Below the pieces are notes generated by a model, which was given only the letters and a program-made list of their open reading frames with translations, was not told the DNA's origin and did no database searches. Shown one piece after another: positions 57,609 through 60,600 of a stretch of 64,000 nucleotides of DNA; position 1 is the first letter of the stretch; every line of letters begins with the position of its first letter. The translations under genes were made by a program, and so were the position numbers. Origin of the DNA: Sporopachydermia quercuum (lineage: Eukaryota > Ascomycota > Sporopachydermiomycetes > Sporopachydermiales > Sporopachydermiaceae); NCBI GenBank assembly GCA_001599295.1, contig BCGN01000009.1, positions 496,001 through 560,000 on the forward strand, written 5' to 3'.

Positions 57609-60600
57609 ATGCATAAAAAGGATAGCTGGAACTTCAAAATGAGCAATCCTTTTTATTGTTTCCAAGAGATTGAAGAAGAANTAGAAGACGCCGTTGATAG
57701 TAGAAGCGTGACAACCAGCAATGGATCAAACAAGAATGATAGGAAAAGATCAACCAGTGATCCTAAGAAATATTTGGATGATCCTGATAACAATCATAAA
57801 AATGGTGACATTCAACTTTCTCCTATAACAAATGGTACATCAGATAATAATAGAAAGACAGGACAAAACAACAGTCCCAGCAGTCGCTGCTCGTGTGACA
57901 CCGAAAGCTATGTTTCTAGTACTGTCTACAATGACTCTGGTGTTGATGATGATGACACCTTAGATATTGACAATTCAAATAATGTTCATGAACAAAATAG
58001 TCCGTCGGAAAGTAANAACAAAACTGAAGAAACNTCGGAGAAAATGCTGAGATTCCTGAAAACACATCCTCGGAAATGCCANACATATATTCCTCTGGTG
58101 AACGAATTGGATGATTTACAATTATTCGATCATGAGCCTGATTTGCATTTATTCAATACGCGTGTGCATGACAATGAGGAAAACAACAGGAATTTTACCA
58201 CTGAAATACCTTCTACACATATCCAAACTGCTGGCTCTGAACCTGGGAAGGATTATGCCAATACTCGTGCTGATTTCAACGGACGAAACAACAATAGTGA
58301 CGAGACAGATGAAGAAGATAATCCTCTAAATTTTCCATTCATATCACAACTATCGAAGGCTGCCAAGAAAATGCAGATCAACACAATAATTCCTCCCGAG
58401 CTCCTAANAAATGGCACCAGTTTTCTACCTCAATTTGGACCTTTCATCAGAGAGGAGGAATTTGATACTTATAGAAGAGGAATTGTAGTTACGAAAGATA
58501 TCGAAGCTGGTAAATGCAACCTGGAGAATCTGGCCCCATATCCAATATCTATGCTACATTCATACTATATTTTTACAATATAAACGATAGTATCAGATGC
58601 TGATAGTNTTCACGAAACCATACTAACATCTAACTACAGGATCGTTTCTTTATGCCGGTGAACCCCAAGTACAAGTAGCCAACCATACAGGAGCAATCAA
58701 CATTGAGAACACTTGTTCGTCCTGTTTTAAATGCGAATTAAACAGCTTGGGAATAAAACGAGCAAACACGAGCTTTATCCTGTGCAAAACCTGCAATTTC
58801 GTCAAATACTGCTGTTACAATTGCTCTCAGAAGGACCTTTTCTTTCATAAACTTGAATGCAAGTTCTTAACAGATTTCCGCTTGTTTAATGATGGAAAGC
58901 CTAATGAAATGGAACGGTTGGTCTTCAGAACAATGTGTATTATGGAACATTTAGGTAAAAATAGTGCAGCATGGAAACTCATAGAAGCATTGGAAGATCA
59001 TGAAGAGCTGTTTCTGACTAAGAAGGCTCAGAAGGATAGATTGGTGTATGCAACAGTACTTGCCAATGGAATTAAGAAGTATTTATCTGCTGATGTTGAA
59101 TCTGAGTATATCAGAAGGGTTATATTTAAGGTATGCTGCTGCTGCTGCTGCTACTACTACTACTACTACTACTACTACTACTACTACTACTACTACTACT
59201 ACTACTACTACTACTACTACTACTACTACTACTACTACTACTACTACTACTACTACTACTACTACTACTACTACTACTACTACTACTACTACTACTACTA
59301 CTACTACTACTACTACTACTACTACTACTACTACTACTACTACTACTACTACTACTACTAACATCAGCATAGATCTTCATTAACTCGTCTAATACTCAAA
59401 CTGCTCTACAGGAACCAAAAGGCTTGATGCTTGACACAACGTTCTCTCTCATTAACCACTCGTGTAACCCCAACTGCATACTTATCTTTGATAGACAATA
59501 CTATAAAATCATATCATTAACCACCATCCCGAAAGGCCAGCAGATATTCGTCAACTACGTCAGCTTGGAATTAACTCGTGCCATCAGGAAAAAGATCCTT
59601 AGAAACTCATACATGTTCAACTGCAAATGCGAATTCTGTACGGGGTTCCTTGATAGCTCATTGAGCATGGTTTGTCCTGGTTGTAATCAATTCTTTGCTA
59701 TGCTATTCAGAAGAACAAATGTTGATCATTCACTACGTATACCACCACACATGAACATCCATTGTCCTAGTGCATCAAAGGATACTAAAGATAAAGTGGG
59801 AGTAATCCGTGAAGCTTCTGTTTATAACAAACAAATCAAAGCACTGTTCAGCCAACCTAAACGACGAACTGAAAGGCTCATTCATTTGATTCTAAACGAA
59901 ACCCAGGTAAAGGCCATTAAAGAGTGTCCTCATTGCCACCAAAATTTCAACAGTTCCCTGCTAAGAAATACTGTCATAGCTGTACAGGATTTATGGGCTA
60001 CCTGCGATAGAATCAAACGTCCTGAAGGCTGCCAAGTACTACCTATCATTGAAATACCAGACAAATCGACATTCCATCAAATACTGTCATTGTTTCTGGC
60101 AATCGAACAATCACAGCTGGTCCCTATGACATTACAATATTTACCAAGTGTTATAACAGCCATAATGCAGTATTTCGATAAAAACACCAGGCTTGGGGTC
60201 TTTGGGATCAGATTCCTGCTTATTCATGTTTTTCATTGCGAAAACCCTTTACGTTTCAACGATTATATGCCGCATTTTGGTTTCATGCTTATGAAACTAA
60301 GCGTTAGATGCTTCAACTCGTTCAAAGCTCTTGATGGACATCTAGAACAGCGAAAGAATGACAAAGGAACCATCACAGAAGATGATAGAGCATTCCTTAA
60401 GATATTCAACTGGACAGTTCAGGATCTAAACAAAGACTTCGCGATTCTACTGCTAAAAGCTGCTATTGTTTTCGCCCATCAGGCTAGCTATCATTTATAC
60501 ACGTTCTACAATCCTAACAGTGAAGCCCTATTGACATCTCGACTAGACAGAGGCATAATTCATGCAGGAGCACGTAAATTTAAGGCAGATAATGAAACCC

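Follow-up and report, generated by a model that had tools for sequence, protein, structure and literature searches.

Organisation of the SET/MYND locus

The window, that is, the whole 64,000-nucleotide stretch of DNA analysed here, is part of contig 9 of the 16.39 Mb genome (12 contigs) of a budding-yeast-like organism. It contains a three-exon gene, recognised by Pfam as a SET/MYND gene, and the second intron of this gene is built largely of triplet repeats. The features, with the evidence for each, are as follows.

57639..58509, + strand: exon 1, open frame (MSNPFY...DIEAG), joining exon 2 in phase 1
58510..58639, + strand: intron 1, donor GTAAAT, TACTAAC at 58621, acceptor CTACAG, with the intron end 13 nt past branch A
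58640..59130, + strand: exon 2, encoding the MYND finger and the beginning of SET (Pfam, translation)
59131..59372, + strand: intron 2 (exact string match; predicted acceptor from SMYD scores and branch distance, also picked by the automatic scan)
59131..59136, + strand: donor GTATGC, its last three bases being the first TGC unit (sequence)
59134..59151, + strand: (TGC)6 (sequence; junction string TGCTGCTGCTACTACTAC once in the genome)
59151..59360, + strand: (CTA)70 (TRF, sequence)
59356..59362, + strand: branch motif TACTAAC, with 59361 as its presumed branch A (sequence; branch base from the consensus)
59359..59361, + strand: in-frame TAA upon retention (retained translation)
59371..59372, + strand: predicted acceptor AG, 11 nt from branch A (scan, string match, SMYD scores, branch distances)
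59373..61067, + strand: exon 3, starting IFINSSNTQTALQEPKG, with the SET motif NHSCNPN and the stop (translation, Pfam, SMYD alignment)

LST8 adjoins this region, with a closest match of 70% identity among the best 120 of 940 relatives; five of its six CTG codons align with leucine in the LST8 chain 5fvm, indicating that CTG encodes leucine here. The window also holds 36 single Ns (e.g. at 58608 and 61556), and another interrupts a CTA tract at locus L011:1531. Such single Ns are scattered through the assembly and may mark heterozygous positions or ambiguity codes that were masked. A degenerate tandem repeat with 15-, 48- and 63-base periods, made of GGCTCAACAGTACTA units, occupies positions 24071-24222.

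The predicted protein has 1018 aa and a long N-terminal region. Pfam scored its core at 48.5 bits for SET and at 22.8 bits for zf-MYND (cut-off 22.7), which bore out the gene identity proposed in an earlier sequence-only reading of this DNA; when the full protein was assembled with an acceptor at 59411, MYND scored 20.9 bits and so fell short of the cut-off. The protein joined across intron 1 passes through the Pfam SET match, and an automatic scan of the window returned the same acceptor for intron 1 with a different donor (58162). The SET and MYND domains, the NHSC motif and the PDB matches to SMYD3, SMYD2 and SMYD1 are features of the SMYD family, and by these sequence features the gene product is a putative methyltransferase of the SMYD (SET/MYND) type. 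Protein searches returned one distant homologue (27% identity over 45%), and no second copy or paralogue was found in a search of the genome.

Anatomy of intron 2

With its predicted end at 59372, intron 2 matches the exact string GTA(TGC)6(TAC)69TAACATCAGCATAG, in which the donor GTA is followed by 75 perfect triplets, then by TAAC, and last by ten bases closing with AG, so that 225 of its 242 nt are repeat, 17 bases are non-repeat, and not one unique base separates the donor GTA from the branch TAAC. The (TGC)6 run begins inside the donor GTATGC and abuts the CTA tract, for which TRF reported 70 copies at 100% match; read in the TAC phase, the tract is (TAC)69 at 59152-59358, followed by a TA that belongs to the branch motif, and a recount gave 68 overlapping copies of TACTAC within it. 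The tract contains no N, and a perfect run of 70 units cannot have arisen by chance. The sequence-only reading had described a CTA repeat between a donor at 59131 and a branch site into which the repeat merges, and all three elements were recovered, the first five bases of TACTAAC being the end of the repeat.

GT...AG ends and a TACTAAC upstream of the AG place this among U2-type spliceosomal introns of the budding-yeast pattern, as judged from these motifs, and we regard it as almost certainly a real intron. Upstream of branch A there is no GT besides that of the donor, and the whole intron has just two AGs, at 59366 and 59371. The frame had also been expected to stay open on retention until the branch motif supplied a stop, and the retained translation does read one Val, six Cys and 69 Tyr before ending at the TAA of TACTAAC; because this TAA sits in the branch motif and the repeat changes in steps of three, gain or loss of triplets never removes the stop. 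A translated poly-Tyr domain was rejected, the frame ending at that TAA ahead of the catalytic motif. In Yarrowia, retained introns are reported to create a stop almost invariably, with degradation of the transcripts (PMC2911113). A strong hairpin in the intron was likewise rejected, its predicted fold being weak (z 1.28) and equalled or bettered by 91 of 100 shuffled sequences.

Choice of the acceptor

The sequence-only reading had ended the intron at 59411, which was not upheld. Use of the AG at 59372 instead adds 13 in-frame codons (IFINSSNTQTALQ) and improves the E-values against SMYD1 (3n71, from 4.4e-10 to 2.2e-14), SMYD2 (9ckg, from 3.9e-13 to 1.2e-15) and SMYD3 (5ex3, from 6.5e-15 to 9.9e-16). 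With 59411 the SMYD3 match is broken in two, and with 59372 it is continuous; for SMYD2 and SMYD1 the alignment is a single stretch whichever acceptor is used, and Pfam SET is nearly equal between the two acceptors (48.5 vs 48.1 bits). The junction 59130/59373 is gap-free in the three printed SMYD alignments (SMYD3, SMYD2 and SMYD1), by which removal of the intron restores the conserved reading frame. From branch A to the intron end the distance is 11 nt with 59372 and 50 nt with 59411, and in six other protein-supported introns (intron 1 of the SET/MYND gene, two in THI6 and three in a cytidine deaminase gene) it is 12, 12, 12, 13, 14 and 23 nt. The added codons, the improved matches and the short branch distance together make 59372 very probably the acceptor, a site that the automatic window scan itself chose, and 59411 was rejected on its split SMYD3 match, its lower SMYD1 and SMYD2 scores and its distance from branch A. 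Our confidence is somewhat reduced because the eight unverified intron candidates of that scan include wider branch-AG distances, five (intron 2 included) lying at 12-14 and three at 29, 31 and 62, on a count that runs one base longer than the branch A-to-end distances above.

The AG ending at 59367 was also rejected: it lies 6 nt from branch A, and the frame then stops after 19 codons. It is the frame that counts against it and not the distance, since a branch-AG distance of 6 is described as usual in some yeasts (PMC2483917). In the hemiascomycetes compared in that account, the distance is clearly constrained in five and not in three, S. cerevisiae among the latter (PMC2483917).

CTA runs elsewhere in the genome

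CTA runs were sought across the genome by start-anchored searches in three phases and by an unanchored search, and on recount 18 places were seen to hold a total of 20 runs that measure 23 nt or more. One of these runs lies behind an N and escaped the anchored searches, and similar runs could be missed. The longest, at 210 nt, is that of the SET/MYND intron, and the second longest found in the assembly measures 69 nt. Three runs at two places were recognised as intronic, namely the one in SET/MYND intron 2 and two adjacent runs in intron 1 of THI6 (807 nt, locus L041:2673-3479, contig C2 at about 56672-57478), whose spliced product matches Pfam TMP-TENI and HK. The THI6 runs, of 12 and 13 whole units, continue with two interruptions as far as the TACTAAC of their intron, and neither this intron nor that of SET/MYND has repeat units 3' of the branch motif. 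For the other 17 runs, no TACTAAC was present on the strand of the repeat within 60 nt, and none was recognised as intronic from its flanks, on non-systematic inspection. THI6 intron 2 (775 nt, locus L041:3574-4348) has an AAT-type repeat inside it. The exact TGC/TAC junction string TGCTGCTGCTACTACTAC is unique in the genome, and copying of the repeat from another locus was rejected on this ground.

The suggestion that expansion began by copying the branch site gained a second example in THI6 but met no general tendency when set against reversed controls. Genome-wide, TACTACTAAC...YAG accounted for 30 of 2109 TACTAAC...YAG matches (28 sites, two being listed twice) compared with 38 of 1756 for the reversed controls, and TACTAAC was preceded by one or two additional TAC units no more often than in those controls. 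The string TACTACTACTAAC occurs five times in the genome and its reversed pattern six times; since neither pattern exceeds its control, branch sites do not generally seed such repeats. Three of the five TACTACTACTAAC occurrences are branch sites (SET/MYND, THI6 and cytidine deaminase), and the cytidine deaminase gene (locus L044, around 1501) has at least three introns, two TAC units preceding one of its branch sites. The association of repeat and branch site depends on two introns that were singled out post hoc, and the balance tips only slightly towards an expansion that began at the branch site, as against a tract that acquired the branch later.

Pairing of the repeat unit with U2

The U2 snRNA gene of this genome (194 bases, locus L032:1501-1694) carries the canonical GUAGUA (GTAGTA); the U2 of S. 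cerevisiae is far longer. TACTAC had been described as one base short of the branch consensus; as UACUAC it is a perfect complement of this U2 GUAGUA with no bulged adenosine, which makes the decoy idea of the sequence-only reading more precise. Calculated for naked RNA against the short U2 core GUGUAGUA, UACUAC pairs at -4.5 kcal/mol and UACUAAC at -2.6 kcal/mol; a 12-base piece of the tract reaches -6.2 kcal/mol, a value attained by 1.5% of 3000 random 12-mers from the window, and the real branch reaches -3.8 kcal/mol, attained by 11% of them. A longer piece of U2 barely discriminates, giving -8.9 for the TGC part and -8.4 for tract pieces. In S. cerevisiae extract, actin pre-mRNA deleted for the branch A (UACUAC) is reported to form the U2 helix and to stall before complex A with Prp5 bound (PMC8357632). 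A decoy effect of the tract is plausible on this analysis.

Origin and effect of the repeat

In our view a working U2-type intron has probably undergone a slippage expansion that stayed within its free donor-branch spacer. A compound trinucleotide microsatellite would have taken over the donor-to-branch spacer, with replication slippage adding CTA units 5' of TACTAAC, whose TACTA amounts to 1.67 CTA units; growth 3' of it is presumably disfavoured because the AG would then lie farther from the branch. Two properties would make the tract tolerable: in this orientation it brings neither a GT nor an AG nor another TACTAAC, and three-base steps always leave the branch-motif stop. Splicing would use the single intact TACTAAC and the AG at 59372, with repeat length acting mainly as a variable and largely neutral spacer with little effect at ordinary lengths, and an intron reduced to only a few units should become too short to function. 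Such a mild effect is favoured by a yeast reporter library in which, by its published account, expression was explained by structure at the junctions and not by intron length alone (PMC4072511). The exact structure of the intron, its lone upstream GT, the THI6 parallel and the weak fold support slippage; the restriction of long tracts to two introns and the lack of seeding enrichment count against it. Expansion alone would also leave the old spacer in place, so that the missing unique spacer needs in addition either a deletion or an intron born from the repeat.

That last possibility, in which a TGC/TAC repeat lay in or was inserted into exon DNA and an added A turned TACTAC into TACTAAC, would leave no older unique sequence in the intron, as is seen from the donor GTA to the branch TAAC, and the exon junction AAG|A agrees with the proto-splice site consensus. 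We nonetheless judge it unlikely, since a branch arising inside a tract should leave units on both sides and none lie downstream in either SET/MYND intron 2 or THI6, and the SMYD alignment, gapless where the exons meet, does not point to an insertion in the protein. Recent Daphnia introns, it should be said in its favour, often carry internal repeats, in a count from which microsatellites were excluded (PMC4202315). Less likely still is an assembly artefact in which a much shorter true tract was inflated by consensus calling: the drop from 210 nt to 69 nt for the next longest run found and the unresolved positions marked by the single Ns in the window would suit it, but the tract itself is free of Ns and of any impurity. 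If this is a long-read assembly, it would also count that such assemblies collapse perfect repeats more often than they invent them.

As to effect, the alternative to a neutral spacer is that (UAC)n holds U2 in unproductive pre-A-like complexes, splicing dropping as the repeat grows, so that repeat number would tune the SET/MYND protein and retained transcripts would stop at the branch-site TAA and be degraded. The GUAGUA of this U2 and the stronger pairing of its short core with UACUAC would agree with this, but the longer U2 piece gives near-equal values, and the branch-point binding protein prefers UACUAAC. The stalling of the actin mutant speaks for it, yet that test, as published, had one site replacing the branch and not decoys beside an intact one (PMC8357632). 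We hold such an array to be improbable, and slightly more doubtful its specific form, in which (UAC)69 would be a natural branch-site array without a branch adenosine that U2 binds and the Prp5 checkpoint rejects, with repeat number setting SET/MYND splicing. If true, slippage in repeat number would act on a chromatin-type enzyme as a dial that is inherited and changes quickly. The donor-branch spacer is expected to vary readily in length, and the spacing within the intron can shift by heritable three-base steps with the retention stop kept.

Comparison with known systems

Among the PMC matches listed for repeats in introns, near branch sites and in new introns, we recognised neither a microsatellite-made intron nor a report of a repeat fused to TACTAAC. 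The anatomy of SET/MYND intron 2 is new and its parts are familiar. Its host protein shares the SET domain, the MYND finger, the NHSC motif and alignment to SMYD3, SMYD2 and SMYD1 with SMYD proteins, and differs from them in its length of 1018 aa and long N-terminal region. Hemiascomycete introns, with their ACTAAC branch, resemble it in having TACTAAC and mostly short branch-AG distances, whereas the excerpted account of them mentions no repeat spacer (PMC2483917).

The CCTG repeat of myotonic dystrophy type 2 and the GGGGCC repeat of C9ORF72 are likewise intronic tandem repeats of variable length, and their expansions affect splicing or lead to intron retention. These disease repeats lie in long introns away from splice signals, whereas the SET/MYND repeat makes up nearly the whole intron and is fused to donor and branch. 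With only 17 non-repeat bases, the intron is a natural test of the minimal intron sequence. It is also a natural counterpart of the laboratory mutant for branch-site proofreading: the UACUAC actin mutant of the Prp5 study has the same six bases as the tract unit and the same bulge-free pairing with U2 GUAGUA, but is described as one artificial branch replacement, whereas SET/MYND intron 2 carries 68 overlapping natural copies beside an intact branch (PMC8357632).
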